Shown: one piece after another, positions 8,979-36,133 of the stretch
Layout of the letters: every line of letters starts with the position of its first letter
Position numbering within the stretch: position 1 is the first letter of the stretch
Source: a virus
IMG/VR virus record: IMGVR_UViG_3300025093_000006
Location: 1-36,565 of that record
Length of the DNA stretch: 36,565 nt
Strand: one strand, 5' to 3'
The notes under the pieces: generated by a model
What the model was told of the DNA's origin: nothing
Databases searched by the model: none
The model's input: only the letters and a program-made list of their open reading frames with translations
Program-made: the position numbers and the translations under genes

Positions 8979-10298
8979 TTAATACCTGTTTGCATACATC
9001 CTCTCAAGATTATTCGCCTCATCTTCTGTCATGTGACTGCGTCTAGTCTTGTTCTGCATCACGCCCATGTACCGAAAACAGTCCGCAAAATGGCTGGACC
9101 AATCATGGCATGGCTTATCAGAGAATACATTAAGACGTTCATTATAAGTTCTGTGGTAGTTCTCGAGACACTTAATAAGGAAACTACACTTGTCCTTATC
9201 AATCCACAGCTTATGCCACATGCCGCGCGCCATTTCAATGCCCTCATGGATCGAGAGATTTGGCACTACTTCGAAATTCAACCCCAAATCCCGGGCCATT
9301 TGTAACCGCGTCTTCGCTCCATGCCCAAGCTCTCTAACCTGTATATCATGAGGAGCACAATGCTTCCCGTATTGCCAAAGCCCATCCGCCGCCTTTTGTT
9401 CTACCACTCTTGCATAATGATCAAGGCCCTCACCTTCGTTAGAATATGTGTCAATGATGTGGATCTCCTGACCAACATTTTGAGCGAAGATGATGGCTGT
9501 ACTATCCGATACCCCTAAATCCCAATACGTATCGACCTTGCAGTATGGATCATACGGCACATTAGTGATACGTTCTTCTTTCTCGGCCTCATTGAGGAGC
9601 TTGGCATAAAACGAGCCCTCTATTCCTTGGTCAAAGTTGCAATAATATTCCTGCTGAATGAGATTTTCGCTCATTCCCTCTTGCCGCTCTACCTCCATAT
9701 CTTCTTCAGTGAGCACGCCAGTATCATTGATAGTCAGCCTCTCGCAAAACCAATCGTCATTATCTTTTGCCATTTGATAAAGATCGTAGGCATGGTTTTT
9801 TCCACGGGGCGTAAAGTTAAAAACCGCCCACCCATCATTCTCGCGGAGAATTGGACGTACAAACGCCCACGACTTCGGATCCTGTAGTGAAAACTCCGAG
9901 AAGACGCAGCCAATCGGGTTAATACCAACGTTGATAATCTTATCCGTGCCCATTATTTGGATAACAGATCCATTGGCAAGCTCTATTTTCATCTCTACAC
10001 TATTAGGCTGCCCTTGAATCAATTCCTTAGGAATATAATCTACAAATCTCTTGCCATCTTTATTAGCACCATCCCACAAAATCCTGCGACCAAGACGTGA
10101 GGTAGGAAAAAAATAACAGTAAGTACCCACTCGTCCACAGCACGCCTCTCTTATCATATAATTCCAGCAGGTAATTTCCTTGCCTGCTCTTCTATGCCAT
10201 ACGAGAACAGCCCGCTTCTTTCCAGAATCCATCGCCCTAAAGAAAGGGAGTTGGTATTTTCTGGGAACCATGTCAGGTATTCTAATTTTCTTTGTCAT
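8979..10298 (-). CDS. terL: Terminase large subunit (439 aa)
   Basis: This is the ATP-driven packaging motor and nuclease. A Walker A of the terminase type is at residues 35-41 (HRRAGKE). Walker B with catalytic Glu is at 130-135 (GCVFSE), and the coupling motif FNFTPRGKN is at 160-168. The nuclease domain starts near residue 256 (DTYWDLGVSDST, key Asp260), with further acidic residues near the C-terminus (CHDWSSHFADCFRYMG). Length is normal. The start overlaps the small subunit gene by 17 nt. The motor appears intact. Confidence 0.93.
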   Translation of the reverse strand: MTKKIRIPDMVPRKYQLPFFRAMDSGKKRAVLVWHRRAGKEITCWNYMIREACCGRVGTYCYFFPTSRLGRRILWDGANKDGKRFVDYIPKELIQGQPNSVEMKIELANGSVIQIMGTDKIINVGINPIGCVFSEFSLQDPKSWAFVRPILRENDGWAVFNFTPRGKNHAYDLYQMAKDNDDWFCERLTINDTGVLTEEDMEVERQEGMSENLIQQEYYCNFDQGIEGSFYAKLLNEAEKEERITNVPYDPYCKVDTYWDLGVSDSTAIIFAQNVGQEIHIIDTYSNEGEGLDHYARVVEQKAADGLWQYGKHCAPHDIQVRELGHGAKTRLQMARDLGLNFEVVPNLSIHEGIEMARGMWHKLWIDKDKCSFLIKCLENYHRTYNERLNVFSDKPCHDWSSHFADCFRYMGVMQNKTRRSHMTEDEANNLERMYANRY

Positions 10299-13667: not shown

Positions 13668-14056
13668 ATCTCGCCCTTCACTCGTTTATAATCACCATTT
13701 GCTCGTGTGCTTCTCGCACCGGCTGTATCTTCGAATTCATTCCACACGCTCTTTCCTGCTGCCATTCGGTCGCTGGCACCTCGTGTTAGGTAAAGCCTCT
13801 GTTTCTTTTGCAACATTCCATCCGGAAGCTTAAAAAAGGTCTCAAGCCTATGCATTTCCCATGATTCGAGTGGTTCCGCGAACCTTCCGAGCTCAAGTTT
13901 TTTATATCTAGGCTGCTCAAATCCGAGATACTCCGAGCATGCGTACTGCTTCAGCCCCATCAGCTCCCGGCAGTAGCGCACAAGTTCAGGGAACTCTAGC
14001 TTCTCCATCTCGGACATGTTATCCTTCATATTTTCTTCATAAATTTTCTCAATCAT
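13664..14056 (-). CDS. XRE-family helix-turn-helix protein (130 aa)
   Basis: Residues ~22-75 form a Cro/CI-type HTH: FPELVRYCRELMGLKQYACS, then EYLGFEQPRYKKLELGRFAE, followed by a helix. The C-terminal third is basic and without a visible domain. This is a second DNA-binding regulator besides the divergent repressor at 15816-16112, and it may control the middle or late switch. SD GAGG is eight bases before ATG 14056. A CII-like activator role would be speculation. Confidence 0.72.
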   Translation of the reverse strand: MIEKIYEENMKDNMSEMEKLEFPELVRYCRELMGLKQYACSEYLGFEQPRYKKLELGRFAEPLESWEMHRLETFFKLPDGMLQKKQRLYLTRGASDRMAAGKSVWNEFEDTAGARSTRANGDYKRVKGEM

Positions 14057-14136
14057 CTAAAACGCCTCTCGTTGGCCTCTACTGGCCTATCTTTTCTTCC
14101 TGGTATGATTCCCTTCCTTAACCGCCATTAGGCCCG

Positions 14137-15006
14137 TCAGCCGCTTCGTATGAGCTCCTGAAGCCTTCTGTAATGCTCTCCGACGACCTCTTTGAACGCT
14201 TGCATGCTGTAATCAAACACATCTGGCGGCTTGGACGAGCCGAGATACACGAATTCCAAAGTTTGGTTTAGAGCTTCGATGTTGACATTGGGAAGATTGC
14301 GTCTGGCGAATGTCTCCCTCGCCCACTTGCGGTTCTCTGCGACGTTGCTCTCTTTCGAGGGCTTTGGCTTGTAGCCTTTCTGGATGCAATCTCTTACCCA
14401 GCCGAAGAAGATCTCTGGCTTAGTGCCTTGCTCGACAGCGAGCTTACACGCGGCGATGATCTTCTCCTCGGGAAAGAGCTTCAAAAGACGACGATAGGAG
14501 TCTTCGTCCGCTCCTAACTGAAGACAAAGAGAAGGAACTACTACTACTGATTTCTTTGGAGACTCAGAAGTCGCGCGCGGTAGTAGTTCTTCTTTTATTA
14601 CTTGTTTATATTCATTAGTTATTAGGGGGCGATTATCCGCCTGACTGGTTTCCCGTATAGCGGGTTTCCCGTCTTTCGGTAAATCGTCATCGATGGTTTC
14701 AATCTTCCTAGGGGTTTCATAAAATATCCACTCCTGCCCAGTCATTTTTCCGCGCTCTCCCCTGGTAGCTTTTCTTTCCAAATATCCGGCCTTTTCTAGC
14801 TCTTTTAAACCCGCTCTTAGAGACTCTCTTCCATCTGTGCTTCGTTTTTCTAAATCTTTAAAATAGAAGACCCAATCATCTCTCTTACTAAACGCATAGA
14901 ACCAAATTCCCTTAGCCTTCCAACTAATACGGTCATCTGTTGCAATTGTTGTATTGATTGTAAGATATGGATTGTTCTTGTCATGAACTGCTCTGCACTG
15001 CGTCAT
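14137..15006 (-). CDS. Winged-helix replication initiator / DnaD-like protein (289 aa)
   Basis: The N-terminal ~110 residues match the winged-helix replication proteins of phages: ISWKAKGIWFYAFSKRDDWV, FYFKDLEKRSTDGRESLRAG and LKELEKAGYLERKATRGERG, ending in EWIFYETPRKI. After a polar linker, the C-terminal half (residues ~160-289) is helical, compatible with a helicase-loading domain. SD GGGGGTGAGATT precedes ATG 15006. No polymerase or helicase is found, so replication probably relies on host machinery recruited here. The exact subfamily (DnaD, O-like) is not determined. Confidence 0.68.
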   Translation of the reverse strand: MTQCRAVHDKNNPYLTINTTIATDDRISWKAKGIWFYAFSKRDDWVFYFKDLEKRSTDGRESLRAGLKELEKAGYLERKATRGERGKMTGQEWIFYETPRKIETIDDDLPKDGKPAIRETSQADNRPLITNEYKQVIKEELLPRATSESPKKSVVVVPSLCLQLGADEDSYRRLLKLFPEEKIIAACKLAVEQGTKPEIFFGWVRDCIQKGYKPKPSKESNVAENRKWARETFARRNLPNVNIEALNQTLEFVYLGSSKPPDVFDYSMQAFKEVVGEHYRRLQELIRSG

Positions 15007-15066
15007 AATCTCACCCCCTTCGCTGCTGGGTTGTCATTGTAGTGCCTCTCTCTTTCCGAATGCTCA

Positions 15067-15525
15067 TCACTCACCTGCCTCGGGAAGAATTGCTGATATT
15101 TGCTCCAGATCTTTAACTCTGAAATAACCATGCTTGCCTTTGATACCCATAGACTCTATGTAGCTGAGTACTAGAACGCGTTGGTTATAGAACCTCCTAT
15201 CCACTTTATTGTATGCGTCCAAAGTGCTTAAACTTGTGCTCTTGGGAAAGGTTTTATTGAGTGGTGGCAGGAAATGAAGAATGTATTCGGCTTCTACGTT
15301 TGATAGCTCCTCACGAGGTACTTCGATGTATAGGACTTGGACATCCTCATCTACCACGTGAGAGTGTCCAGACATCCGTGCTTCAATGTTCTTCGTTTGT
15401 CCTATATATAAAACTGTTCCTTCCTGGTCAAAAATCCCATAAACGTAGCCCATAGGGTTGCTGTCATCTGGATAGTATCTTTTGGCTTGTGCCCATAAGT
15501 GATGATCTGTTATATTGTGTGACAT
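15067..15525 (-). CDS. GIY-YIG nuclease-domain protein (152 aa)
   Basis: The GIY-YIG core is visible at residues 26-90: GYVYGIFDQEG, LYIGQTKNIEARMSGHSH (Arg50), the catalytic Glu in NVEAEYILHF (Glu78 or Glu80), and PPLN. The C-terminal ~55 residues are basic/helical and could bind DNA. Such proteins are free-standing homing endonucleases or small phage nucleases. It is the second gene downstream of the repressor, after a 290-bp gap containing hairpins. Confidence 0.78.
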   Translation of the reverse strand: MSHNITDHHLWAQAKRYYPDDSNPMGYVYGIFDQEGTVLYIGQTKNIEARMSGHSHVVDEDVQVLYIEVPREELSNVEAEYILHFLPPLNKTFPKSTSLSTLDAYNKVDRRFYNQRVLVLSYIESMGIKGKHGYFRVKDLEQISAILPEAGE

Positions 15526-15632
15526 GGTACGCTATCTCCTTTGTTGATGATGTGTATCCTTTTATTTTGCCCGCGTTTCTGCCCCGTAAAGCAGCGCGGG
15601 CTTTTTCTTTTGTCTATCTCGTCTTTTTTCAT
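15510..15632 (-). CDS. Possible tiny basic ORF (40 aa), uncertain
   Basis: A minus-strand frame opens at ATG 15632 with GGAG ten bases upstream and ends inside the start of the GIY-YIG gene. The product (MKKDEIDKRKSPRCFTGQKR, then GQNKRIHIINKGD) is basic. It covers a strong hairpin, so its composition is shaped by that structure. It may be a leader peptide or chance. Confidence 0.22.
   Translation of the reverse strand: MKKDEIDKRKSPRCFTGQKRGQNKRIHIINKGDSVPCHTI
15569..15611 (+). terminator. Rho-independent terminator-like hairpin (plus strand)
   Basis: Arms GCCCGCG (15569-15575) and CGCGGGC (15595-15601) pair perfectly, with an inner CTGC/GCAG pairing, and are followed by TTTTTCTTTT. On the minus strand it is followed by AAAATAAAA, so it works only for plus-strand RNA. 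No plus-strand gene is known upstream. Confidence 0.6.
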
Positions 15633-15715
15633 TGTACTTATCTCCAGTTTCATGATAGTCTTCTTGCAGAAATGGTCGATTTTCCCAGCAAAACGGGGGG
15701 GGTTGGTTTTTTTTA

Positions 15716-15736
15716 GCCCATGCTACTGGGCGTTTT
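15716..15736 (+). terminator. Short hairpin plus T-run (plus strand)
   Basis: GCCCA / TGGGC arms (15716-15720, 15727-15731) with a six-base loop are followed by GTTTT. A second small stem, CACC/GGTG at 15737-15748, then ATTTTG, follows directly. Both are weaker than the flanking hairpins but share their orientation. Confidence 0.35.
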
Positions 15737-15764
15737 CACCTAACGGTGATTTTGTGTGTGTAAA

Positions 15765-15806
15765 GGCGGGCTACGTATGGTGCGGGGGCCCGCCTTCTTT
15801 TTCTTT
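15765..15806 (+). terminator. Second strong terminator-like hairpin (plus strand)
   Basis: Arms GGCGGGC (15765-15771) and GCCCGCC (15788-15794) are perfect and are followed by TTCTTTTTCTTT. On the minus strand the stem is followed only by TTTACAC. It sits ten bases beyond the stop of the repressor gene, so it could also weakly terminate the leftward repressor transcript. Confidence 0.55.
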
Positions 15807-15815
15807 GCCCATTCT

Positions 15816-16112
15816 TTATATGAGACTAAAAACTTTTCTGCAAGAACTGTTTTCCTCTCCGGGCATTATTGGCTTGATATGTGCAGCTGCCACGCGCTTG
15901 GGCTTTCCCTCGTAGCCTGTAACTTTCCCTGATAAAACATCTTCTGCAGTAATTTCTCCATTGGTGGCTCTTTCGATCCTTCTTGCCAGGCTCCTGCCTG
16001 CCTTACGTGTTCCGGTAATCACACACGATAAATGTGCTCTTCCTGTATCGATCATGTCAGCAAATTCAGATTGCTTGATGCCGCGTTCTAATAAATAATC
16101 TCTAAGATTCAC
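15816..16112 (-). CDS. HTH repressor candidate (98 aa, GTG start)
   Basis: An upstream ATG exists at 16148, but the GTG at 16112 has a perfect AGGAGG with a 7-base spacer, so I choose it. Residues ~1-55 form a compact HTH (VNLRDYLLERGIKQSEFADM, then IDTGRAHLSCVITGTRKAGR) of the Cro/YdaS type, followed by RIERATNGEITAEDVL. The C-terminus is basic, with no visible cleavable domain. It is divergent from the early operon across a 125-bp region with operator-like palindromes, the standard layout for a phage switch. No integrase was seen, so lysogeny is not proven. Confidence 0.72.
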   Translation of the reverse strand: MNLRDYLLERGIKQSEFADMIDTGRAHLSCVITGTRKAGRSLARRIERATNGEITAEDVLSGKVTGYEGKPKRVAAAHIKPIMPGEENSSCRKVFSLI

Positions 16113-16237
16113 GTGTAAACCTCCTGTATACGCAATATATCCTATCACAGAGCTTTTTTTCTTTCACCCATCATTTTTTATGTTGCGTATGGAACACACA
16201 TGTGTTATAGTTGTGATATCTCAAAAGCGAGGATACG
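16113..16237. promoter_or_regulatory. Divergent control region with operator-like repeats
   Basis: The region separates the repressor (-) from the early operon (+). It contains an inverted repeat ATACGCAA (16128-16135) / TTGCGTAT (16183-16190), a perfect palindrome ACACATGTGT (16196-16205), and an imperfect 14-bp palindrome centred on GATATC (about 16211-16224). On the minus strand, TATATT near 16136-16141 could be the repressor -10. Repressor binding here is inferred. Confidence 0.55.
16183..16211 (+). promoter_or_regulatory. Early rightward promoter (sigma70-like)
   Basis: A -35 TTGCGT at 16183-16188, a 17-base spacer and a -10 TATAGT at 16206-16211 lie about 26 bases before the first early ATG. 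The palindrome ACACATGTGT occupies the end of the spacer, the usual place for a repressor to block polymerase. Confidence 0.6.
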
Positions 16238-16426
16238 ATGAAAAACTATCTGCATGTAAGGAATATAACCGAAGGGCGTAAGCTCGTTAATGGAAAGCCA
16301 AGCGAGAGAATTTATCGAAGTGAATGTTACACCAATTACAAGATGAGCAGACGCGAATTCATTGCCGAAGCTACTAAAGAGAACTATGACTTGACGACCG
16401 TGCGCTTCAGGTCAATTCGGGATTAG
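16238..16426 (+). CDS. First early-operon gene, hypothetical (62 aa)
   Basis: GAGG with a 5-base spacer precedes ATG 16238, just downstream of the early promoter. The protein is basic and polar (MKNYLHVRNITEGRKLVNGK, then YKMSRREFIAEATKENYDLT). No motif is recognised. As the first gene transcribed it may be regulatory or host-directed, but nothing in the sequence proves this. Confidence 0.55.
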   Translation: MKNYLHVRNITEGRKLVNGKPSERIYRSECYTNYKMSRREFIAEATKENYDLTTVRFRSIRD

Positions 16427-16445
16427 CTTAACACACAGGAGCACC

Positions 16446-16721
16446 ATGTTAGATTACAACGATTGTCCAAGTGACCATGGATATTTCCATGAAAGTGAAT
16501 TACCAGACTACGATCACCTCAAAGACCACGTGATCGGAATCCTGGAGTCTCTCTACAAGACTGGAAGCGTAAAACAACTAGAATCTAGTCTTGAAGAAGT
16601 ATGTGACCAGTTGGAGATACCATTTGAACCCCAGCAGCCTCTGTTAGAGAGGAAGGAGCTACGCAACTATGCAATGTGGCATCTTGGCTACCAGCGCTGC
16701 ATGCTAGATAGGAGTTTATAG
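16446..16721 (+). CDS. Hypothetical acidic early protein (91 aa)
   Basis: AGGAG with a 4-base spacer precedes ATG 16446. The protein is acidic and mostly helical (LKDHVIGILESLYKTGSVKQ, LESSLEEVCDQLEIPFEP), ending RNYAMWHLGYQRCMLDRSL. Its stop overlaps the GTG of the HNH gene by one base. Function is unknown. Confidence 0.55.
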   Translation: MLDYNDCPSDHGYFHESELPDYDHLKDHVIGILESLYKTGSVKQLESSLEEVCDQLEIPFEPQQPLLERKELRNYAMWHLGYQRCMLDRSL

Positions 16722-17266
16722 TGAAAAATTACAACGAGATGGAGTCTGATCGAGTAGTATCTCTTTCTAAGAGCTTCAAAAAGAAGTTTCATCGTAACGG
16801 TAACTGTAAGTACGCACCATCTATTCGATTTTTTGAAAAGGTTGCCTATGGGTTAAGTGAATGTTGGTTTTGGATTGGATGTCTCGATCATTCTGGGTAT
16901 GGCCGTTTTAATTATGCTGGAGAACACTTCGCACATAGGGTTTCTTGGGTAATGCATTTTGGTCCAATTCCAAAAACACTAAAGGTTTTACATAGGTGCG
17001 ATGTTAGAAATTGTGTTAATCCGGATCATCTTTTTCTTGGAACTCAACGGGATAATGTTTTGGATATGATTTCTAAAGGAAGAGGCGGTGCTCATGGCGC
17101 ATCTTCTGGTGAGCAAAATCCAATGGCTAAGTTAAACACTGTTCAAGTTGAATGGATCAGGACTAATCGTGCCCATCTTTCACAAAACAAAATGGCTATA
17201 AAATTTAATGTGTCTCCGATGACCATTAGCCGAATTCTTAACAACAAAACATGGAGAAATAAATGA
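16721..17266 (+). CDS. HNH homing endonuclease (181 aa, GTG start)
   Basis: GGAG six bases before the GTG sets the start. The HNH domain covers residues 72-108: HRVSWVMHFGPIPKTLKVLH, then RCDVRNCVNPDHLFLGT, with His91, Asn101 and His103 as likely catalytic residues and paired Cys for zinc. Residues ~136-176 look like a helix-turn-helix (VQVEWIRTNRAHLSQNKMAI, KFNVSPMTISRILNN) for DNA recognition. It is a typical free-standing homing endonuclease and is more AT-rich in appearance than its neighbours. It sits just before the recombination genes and overlaps the ERF start. Confidence 0.82.
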   Translation: MKNYNEMESDRVVSLSKSFKKKFHRNGNCKYAPSIRFFEKVAYGLSECWFWIGCLDHSGYGRFNYAGEHFAHRVSWVMHFGPIPKTLKVLHRCDVRNCVNPDHLFLGTQRDNVLDMISKGRGGAHGASSGEQNPMAKLNTVQVEWIRTNRAHLSQNKMAIKFNVSPMTISRILNNKTWRNK

Positions 17267-17847
17267 AAACATCTGAATCAATTAATGAACTTGCCACAGC
17301 TTTGGCTAAAGCGCAGAGCGAAATGAAGCCCGCTATCAAAAATGCTAAAAACCCACATTTCCGTTCTAAGTTTTGCGACCTAACTTCTATTTTCGATTCA
17401 ATACGAGAACCGTTAGCTACTAACGGACTTTCTGTTTTACAAGAAGCAACTACCATCTCAGATGGCGTTGCTGTTACGACCAGGGTTATGCATGTGTCTG
17501 GCCAGTGGATTGAGTTTGGTCCTCTTATTGTTCCTCTCGGAAAGAAAGATGCTCATGGAATTGGATCGGCAACTTCTTATGCAAAGCGCTATAGTTTATC
17601 TGCTGCTCTGGGTGTCGTTTCTGACGATGACGATGATGGAAACGCTGCTTCCGGTAAGTCCACCCCTTCTGCTAAGTTCATCACACAGAGTCAAGTGGCT
17701 GATCTAGAGAAGCTCATCAATGGACACACTGAGATCAGAGACCTTGTGTTAGCAAATTGTAACGGAAACATGGCTAGCATCACAGTAGATCGCTATCCAG
17801 GAGCTGTCCAATGGATTAAGAAAATGGTGGAGGAAGCCAATGACTGA
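17263..17847 (+). CDS. erf: ERF-family single-strand annealing protein (194 aa)
   Basis: ERF proteins anneal complementary single strands and, with an exonuclease, catalyse phage recombination. The family signature is at residues ~91-127: PLGKKDAHGIGSATSYAKRY, then SLSAALGVVSDDDDDGN. The N-terminal ALAKAQSEMKPAIKNAKNPH, FRSKFCDLTSIFDSIREPL is also typical. The C-terminal ~60 residues are a separate helical tail. Its ATG overlaps the HNH stop and its end overlaps the exonuclease start, so the pair is translationally coupled. Confidence 0.88.
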   Translation: MKTSESINELATALAKAQSEMKPAIKNAKNPHFRSKFCDLTSIFDSIREPLATNGLSVLQEATTISDGVAVTTRVMHVSGQWIEFGPLIVPLGKKDAHGIGSATSYAKRYSLSAALGVVSDDDDDGNAASGKSTPSAKFITQSQVADLEKLINGHTEIRDLVLANCNGNMASITVDRYPGAVQWIKKMVEEAND

Positions 17848-35512: not shown

Positions 35513-36133
35513 ATGAAAAGGAAATACGATCACACGAATAAATCTTTTGGAAAATGGACCGTTCTTTCTAGAGCTTCTCCTAAAAATAGAAACGATAGAT
35601 GGAATGTCAAATGTAAATGCGGAACACTGTCCATAGTGCTTGGAACAGAACTTAGAAAAGGAACGTCTAAAGGCTGTAAAAAATGCCATAAACTTACTCA
35701 CGGTATGTCTAAGACAAGGACCTATAATATTTGGTGTGGAATGAAAGATAGATGTAACAATCCCAACAACTCTCATTATCATTCTTATGGTGCTAGAGGG
35801 ATAAACGTGTGTGACAGATGGCTTAATAGTTTTATCAATTTTTTTGAAGACATGGGAGAATCCCCAACAAATCTTTCTCTTGATCGAATTGATAACGATA
35901 AAGGTTATTTTAAAGAAAATTGCAAATGGAGTGATAATTTTATTCAGCAGAGAAATACCAGAAAATCTATCAAAATAGGGACAATTAGAGGGAATTGGTG
36001 TCTTAAGAAACGTCTTTTTAATGAAGGAAAAGCCATCATTGAGTGTATCTTTTGCAAGAAAACTAAAATGCGAGCATTTGCAAATTTTAGACAAAATCGA
36101 ATCGGAAAATGTGGATGCAGTATTTCTAAATAG
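35513..36133 (+). CDS. HNH/AP2-like homing endonuclease family protein (206 aa)
   Basis: Opposite in orientation to all neighbouring late genes. A zinc-ribbon pattern (Cys34, Cys36, Cys55, Cys58) precedes the core MKDRCNNPNNSHYHSYGARG, INVCDRW, then MGESP and LSLDRIDNDKGYFKENCKWS (77-140). This SYGARGIxVCDRW...SLDRIDNxxGYxxxNCxW layout is well known in phage HNH-type/homing proteins. The C-terminal ~60 residues add another Cys cluster (ECIFCKK ... KCGCS). It ends tail-to-tail with the nozzle gene, overlapping by eight bases. Confidence 0.8.
   Translation: MKRKYDHTNKSFGKWTVLSRASPKNRNDRWNVKCKCGTLSIVLGTELRKGTSKGCKKCHKLTHGMSKTRTYNIWCGMKDRCNNPNNSHYHSYGARGINVCDRWLNSFINFFEDMGESPTNLSLDRIDNDKGYFKENCKWSDNFIQQRNTRKSIKIGTIRGNWCLKKRLFNEGKAIIECIFCKKTKMRAFANFRQNRIGKCGCSISK

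Follow-up and report, generated by a model that had tools for sequence, protein, structure and literature searches.

What RNA, if any, is read rightward through a gap between two leftward genes of an uncultured bacterial virus? The gap measures 290 bp (15526-15815) and lies in IMG/VR virus record IMGVR_UViG_3300025093_000006, whose 36,565 nucleotides were analyzed in full and are referred to here as the window. It is bounded by the start of a GIY-YIG gene (15525) and the stop of an HTH gene (15816). An earlier note had described in it a cluster of plus-strand terminator-like hairpins fed by no plus-strand gene, and had offered three options, namely small regulatory RNAs, an antisense RNA resembling lambda OOP, or insulators. 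We consider it likely that a plus-strand small RNA, ending at terminator B, pairs in trans with several mRNA starts of its own phage and thereby blocks ribosomes.

Plus-strand hairpins in the gap

When the terminator-like sites on the plus strand of the whole window were ranked by energy, hairpin B came first and hairpin A second, both within the gap. A simple scan of both strands from 14000 to 17500 found nine terminator-like sites, compared with 2.6 ± 1.7 in dinucleotide shuffles, and the plus-strand sites in the gap make up four of the nine. The whole-window ranking and the shuffle scan thus confirm the two strong and the weaker plus-strand hairpins of the gap, whose coordinates had been given correctly to within a few bases. 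Only three plus-strand open reading frames reach the gap (15489-15716, 15541-15915 and 15756-15932), and all run across the hairpins. The U tract that follows hairpin B stops at 15806, short of the HTH stop codon at 15816, leaving the 3′ end of the HTH coding region without overlap. The features of the region are:

14137-15006, minus strand: O-like replication initiation gene, which in relatives directly follows the RNA region
15067-15525, minus strand: GIY-YIG endonuclease gene; its start ranks second by match energy
15569-15601, plus strand: hairpin A (-18.1 kcal/mol), then TTTTTCTTTT; upstream terminator-like hairpin
15680-15701 and 15716-15731, plus strand: weak hairpins in the body of the proposed RNA
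15736-15749, plus strand: small hairpin TCACCTAACGGTGA, directly before the linker
15750-15762, plus strand: linker TTTTGTGTGTGTA, predicted to be unpaired and corresponding to the conserved CUCGCGUGUAG; first putative seed
15763-15796, plus strand: hairpin B (-21.8 kcal/mol), putative small-RNA terminator with a covarying stem, adjoining the HTH gene
15777-15783, plus strand: loop of hairpin B, AUGGUGC; second putative seed
15797-15806, plus strand: U-rich tail of hairpin B, CTTTTTCTTT
15816-16148, minus strand: HTH gene, Cro/repressor-like, beside hairpin B; the same neighbor in most relatives
16431-16437, plus strand: ACACACA, proposed target part facing the linker
16441-16447, plus strand: GCACCAT, proposed target part facing the loop; includes the first two bases of ATG
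16446-16721, plus strand: orf91, a small early gene whose start region (16431-16447) is the proposed target

Several further features of the layout were noted. Hairpin A lies inside a leftward, minus-strand 47-aa ORF (15510-15653), which overlaps the start of the GIY-YIG gene as well. Free-standing homing-type endonucleases flank the switch region, GIY-YIG at 15067-15525 and HNH at 16721-17266. A perfect 12-nt inverted repeat with nearly palindromic arms 162 nt apart (15661-15672, TTCTTGCAGAAA; 15835-15846, TTTCTGCAAGAA) possibly represents two operator copies. The same hairpin sequence occurs at about 95 and 36533 of the window; the ends of the record therefore probably overlap, and the map is probably circular.

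Relatives of the locus

The window showed no DNA similarity to phage records. In viral contigs, the HTH and GIY-YIG proteins had no relatives and the replication protein one partial relative only; orf91 had no match in phage records and was insufficiently conserved as an alignment query. The terminase, by contrast with these queries, was productive, yielding 27 loci in a search of viral contigs and 80 with an alignment query. All relatives are metagenomic viral contigs. In several of them the gene order is recombination genes, orf91, HTH gene, gap, O-like replication gene and then terminase, with the proposed RNA encoded on the opposite strand beside the O-like gene; in L096 this neighbor of the RNA matches Phage_rep_O (Pfam, 3.8e-13).

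The gap of L088 contains two opposite-strand terminators of -17.9 and -16.0 kcal/mol, which rank first and joint second within the 10 kb scanned, at a spacing of about 215 nt versus 195 in the window. The GIY-YIG gene is absent at the corresponding place in L088 and was thus probably inserted in the window. When the HTH-side hairpins were aligned, the stem sequences proved unrelated, the loop was UGGU in seven of seven, and all had a linker with GTG. A pattern derived from three members retrieved eight stretches from viral contigs, namely the three source contigs, L110, L111, L113 and L114 (the same contig as L135, also fetched through its terminase), and L116, whose match was judged fortuitous. 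With a second pattern, designed for the window type, the L088 contig alone was found again. In cellular genomes there were nine pattern matches, the best at 17.5 bits, and all were read as chance.

A covariance model built from eight sequences was then run on the window, on 79 of the 92 loci L083-L174 and on 81 loci fetched through other genes. At least 24 bits were reached in the gap region of 11 distinct phages (the window, L088, L093, L096, L098, L109, L110, L111, L113, L120 and L135), eight of which were in the model. Lower scores were obtained at the same place in L090 (18.3 bits), L139 (16.0) and L141 (11.7). Loci carrying the same contig (L112 and L109, L115 and L096, L117 and L098) or the same region (L090 and L091) were identified, the latter pair being counted once. 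The HTH gene was recognized beside the hairpin in nine of the 11 phages, the exceptions being L111 and L113, and no convincing hairpin motif was found in the gap of L089, L125 or L132, where HTH and O were both recognized.

The best of the 81 loci fetched through other genes was L022, at 20.9 bits. This match is a terminator at 9094-9138 (minus strand), with loop GGATGGTCC after GTGTAT, in a phage found through its Erf protein. It may be a remote member, but 29 of 200 shuffles reached its score in the target test, which was therefore unconvincing. A motif-like site in L132 (3684-3727, plus strand; the same in L134) consists of TTTGTGTAG, a GC-rich hairpin and a T run, without the UGGU loop, and adjoins an exonuclease gene rather than lying in the HTH gap.

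The surroundings of hairpin B also recur. The U-rich tail is present in the aligned relatives, and a hairpin is predicted or visible in several of them at the place matching 15736-15749 of the window. A terminator-like hairpin upstream of B was found in eight of 12 phages examined; it is absent in L090, L113 and L135, and L111 has only one with a poor tail.

Hairpin B as an RNA structure read on the plus strand

Conservation of the stem by compensatory changes was a check that the earlier note had called for, and it can be assessed across 12 phages. In hairpin B, 90.1% of the cells in 13 pairs are standard, and 12 of the 13 pairs are changed on both sides. The covariation score is 0.892 versus 0.234 in shuffles, and none of 500 shuffles reaches it, in an alignment that was fitted to the covariance model. 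A MAFFT alignment of eight phages, which was not model-fitted, gives the same picture (84.5% paired, 10 of 13 pairs changed on both sides, none of 500 shuffles). Moreover, G-U cells in the stem outnumber A-C cells by 20 to 2 in the 12 phages, which identifies the plus strand as the RNA; a minus-strand leader structure was rejected for this reason. While the stem is rewritten, two elements are kept, namely the loop UGGU and the linker that precedes it, about GYGUGUAG or a variant. The compensatory pairs and the strand bias demonstrate, at the level of sequence comparison, that hairpin B is an RNA structure kept by selection and read on the plus strand. Rightward RNA, as had been suggested, is thus strongly supported by comparison, namely by the compensatory changes, the conserved loop and linker, and G-U pairs possible on the plus strand only.

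The RNA has no match in Rfam. Rfam scans found no family at its gathering threshold, c4-type RNAs included, in the window or nine relatives; the best sub-threshold match in the window had 21.6 bits against a cut-off of 50, and an rseX match had 24.8 against 50. The same scans led us to reject a known Rfam RNA and a group I intron around the GIY-YIG gene. An intrinsic terminator of its own is present, in the form of hairpin B with its U-rich tail, conserved and covarying. Among 12 phages examined, L090, L093, L109 and L120 have plus-strand promoter-like sites about 2 sd or more above shuffles; the window has no clear plus-strand promoter, its best site scoring 7.7 versus 8.3 ± 1.4 in shuffles. 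The transcription of the small RNA, its 5′ end and the direction of its regulation are inferred.

Complementarity of linker and loop to gene starts

A search of each genome for complements of its own RNA revealed that linker and loop are complementary to translation starts of the same phage, above all that of orf91. The orf91 start of the window, at 16446, reads AACACACAGGAGCACCATG, facing UGUGUGU and AUGGUGC. In L088 the orf91 start has TTTTTACACACGGAGCACCACCATG where the RNA has TCCGTGTGTA and GGTGGTGC; in L096 it has TATACGCGAGGAGAACCAATATG, matching CTCGCGT and ATTGGTTC of the RNA; and a start in L093 has GCTACACGAAGGAGAAAACCACATG, matching CGTGTAGC and GTGGTTT. In a set of picked targets, the linker complement lies mostly at -23 to -9 and the loop complement at -9 to -1 relative to the start. 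That is, the linker matches the stretch before and over the Shine-Dalgarno, and the loop the stretch up to the start codon; pairing at these places should therefore block ribosomes.

The orf91 protein is acidic and has no Pfam match. A RecT-like protein is a predicted target in L098, L135, L113, L110 and L093, its identity being taken from a weak Pfam RecT match (0.0093, in L098) and from RecT-like phage proteins at 30-38% identity. Other predicted targets are a 171-aa protein near terminase (L088 and L091), the replication gene (L091) and a RusA-like gene (L113). These proteins come from a list of picked rows, and only some of the targets named in this paragraph pass the strict two-seed test given below.

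A further set of complements lies on the late strand after terminase, where relatives carry GAACCAC-type loop complements and then CUACACGCGAG. A regular expression run over the 92 loci gave 22 matches, comprising six of the RNAs' own sites, one orf91 start (L112), one site before terminase (L097) and 14 after it. The last group corresponds to 13 distinct phages and lies, where readable, ahead of the portal gene, which was identified by eye in the relatives. In L096 (GAACCAAT) and L093 (AAACCAC), the after-terminase site has the phage's own loop variant.

The stretch from terminase to the next gene in L092 (about 2055-2200), and similarly in L095, L098, L101, L109, L130 and L135, resembles a structured leader. 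Read by eye, its order is CTACACGCGAGG, GGACTGATCATCC, a hairpin, CCTCGCACC, a second hairpin, and GGTGCGATG at the gene start. Two alternative pairings can be drawn, of CCTCGC with GCGAGG or, over the start codon, of CGCACC with GGTGCG, and it is conceivable that they constitute a switch.

The order of the complements bears on the geometry of pairing. At gene starts the two complements appear in the same order as in the RNA, and one continuous antiparallel duplex is therefore impossible; either the hairpin would fold back along the linker duplex, or the two contacts would alternate. After terminase the two complements stand in antiparallel order, an arrangement that would suit a kissing loop together with a strand.

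Specificity of each RNA for its own genome

Whether these matches are specific can be assessed by exchanging the RNAs between phages. For the best gene start in each of 12 phages, the phage's own RNA scores 15.9 on average versus 13.6 with the RNAs of others, and the sum for own RNAs was not equaled in any of 20,000 permutations. Seed boundaries in these first 12 phages had been drawn by eye at a stage when some targets were already known but the genome-wide scans had yet to be run. With shuffled seeds, the best score is reached in at most two of 200 cases for seven of the 12 phages, and more often for L091 (8), the window (13), L109 (44), L113 (55) and L111 (63). With orf91 starts alone, in nine phages, the own score is 14.9 versus 11.2, reached by one of 20,000 permutations. 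The orf91 start of L093 is not a match (score 8); neighboring genes are.

A stricter test, run on 14 phages, demanded a 6-base linker match upstream together with a 6-base loop match at the start. It found 16 sites; shuffled seeds gave 2.43, the sense control one, and the RNAs of other phages 7.23, a number already this high because many phages share the motif. At least one such site was present in 10 of the 14 phages, with orf91 among the sites in eight, and none in L091, L111, L113 and L135.

Two phages outside the model were scored as well. In L139, orf91 has the best of 162 starts, and both seeds have altered accordingly (score 15; five of 200 shuffles as high), this start having been seen before the test. 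In L141, the best of 272 starts belongs to a 119-aa gene (19; none of 200 shuffles), and orf91 is second (14). Among the 52 genes of the window, orf91 leads in matches (14, the runner-up having 11) and in summed energy (-24.9), the energy of the GIY-YIG start being almost equal (-24.7). When 633 window starts were scanned freely, orf91 (14) was surpassed by a start inside another gene, at 35782, with a score of 15. Taken together, these comparisons demonstrate statistically that the RNA and its predicted targets change together between phages.

Alternative explanations

Could the RNA instead pair only with the overlapping leftward HTH-replication transcript and destabilize it, as an OOP-like cis-antisense RNA? 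Its position and direction are indeed those of OOP, with the O-like gene on one side and the 3′ end of the HTH gene, at which it points, on the other, and any plus-strand RNA of the gap is perfectly complementary to a leftward read-through transcript. However, a purely cis-acting RNA needs no conserved letters in loop and linker, yet these are kept while the stem changes, and they match covarying gene starts elsewhere. In addition, the promoters predicted in relatives would start the RNA outside the coding region of the replication gene. Because the indicated targets are translation starts elsewhere in the genome, the RNA seems to act in trans and not solely as an antisense to the adjoining leader. 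The OOP-like antisense proposal thus holds for position and not for targets, and we regard pairing in cis only as unlikely.

We think it very improbable that the hairpins only stop stray rightward transcription before the HTH gene and switch region, with no functional small RNA. Several tandem terminators in one orientation, ending just before the HTH gene, would fit such insulators, but insulation leaves the UGGU loop, the linker before the stem and the covariation with gene starts unexplained; of the three options first offered, it is the small regulatory RNA that fits. Slightly less probable still is a protein-binding or antitermination element in which linker and loop are bound by a protein and not by mRNA, since such a site would also show a conserved loop and flank on a variable stem but would recur in the same sense, whereas the gene starts carry the complement (one sense-control site versus 16), which covaries with the RNA.

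Proposed mode of action

In the trans-pairing reading that we prefer, the small RNA gene would lie on the plus strand between the HTH gene and the replication gene. Hairpin A may act as an earlier terminator or attenuator of the same transcript, cutting short part of the transcripts and so setting the amount of full-length RNA. The RNA would pair in trans with the orf91 mRNA in the window, and in relatives with the mRNAs of orf91 and the RecT-like annealing protein, with the portal leader and with others. By keeping ribosomes off, pairing would delay or limit early recombination and late genes. A group of uncultured bacterial viruses thus shares what looks like a small regulatory RNA, which probably switches off the genes that it matches.

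A bolder proposal, to which we give an even chance, is that this is a new phage RNA family forming a private translational regulon, in which RNA and targets share a two-part address (CUACACGCGAGG plus GAACCAC) that drifts in step on both. Such an address, on the starts of early recombination genes and on the late portal leader, would time early and late expression post-transcriptionally. The terminator loop and the linker would both be seeds, and the stem would be kept for geometry only.

Relation to known systems and significance

On the lambda map, OOP is a small RNA beside replication gene O, on the opposite strand, which ends at the neighboring regulator gene. The RNA proposed for the window likewise has an O-like replication gene as its opposite-strand neighbor and ends at a regulator gene. 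It differs in ending past, not inside, the HTH gene, and in that its conserved parts match other gene starts in trans. OOP itself causes cleavage by RNase III and is described as a cis-antisense RNA to cII (PMC12197685).

A second likeness is offered by antisense RNAs of phages whose pairing site on the phage mRNA is close to the ribosome binding site. According to the available text of PMC12197685, P22 sar and P1 c4 block ant translation by antisense pairing, and for c4 the pairing bases are believed to lie exposed in loops. As described there, c4 (P1/P7) and sar act on one mRNA, ant, of the same locus, whereas here several unlinked targets are predicted and one putative seed is the terminator loop. 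VpdS of phage VP882 and PreS of lambda are, like the proposed RNA, phage-encoded base-pairing small RNAs, VpdS affecting phage and host mRNAs (PMC12197685, same portion); they are presented as Hfq-bound and largely host-acting, while the targets predicted here are the phage's own gene starts. By analogy, then, the proposed RNA has the position of OOP and would act in the manner of c4 or sar, but on several targets in trans. We found no such multi-target phage RNA in a literature search that reached few subscription papers. Since the phage antisense RNAs covered by the available part of PMC12197685 act on one neighboring mRNA or largely on the host, an RNA with several targets in its own phage would differ from them.

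The co-variation of RNA and targets is a signature usable for searches in other uncultured phages, and the swap between a phage's own RNA and those of others offers a route to small-RNA targets where no host is in culture. If the proposal is true, a small DNA phage coordinates its early and late genes with one RNA.
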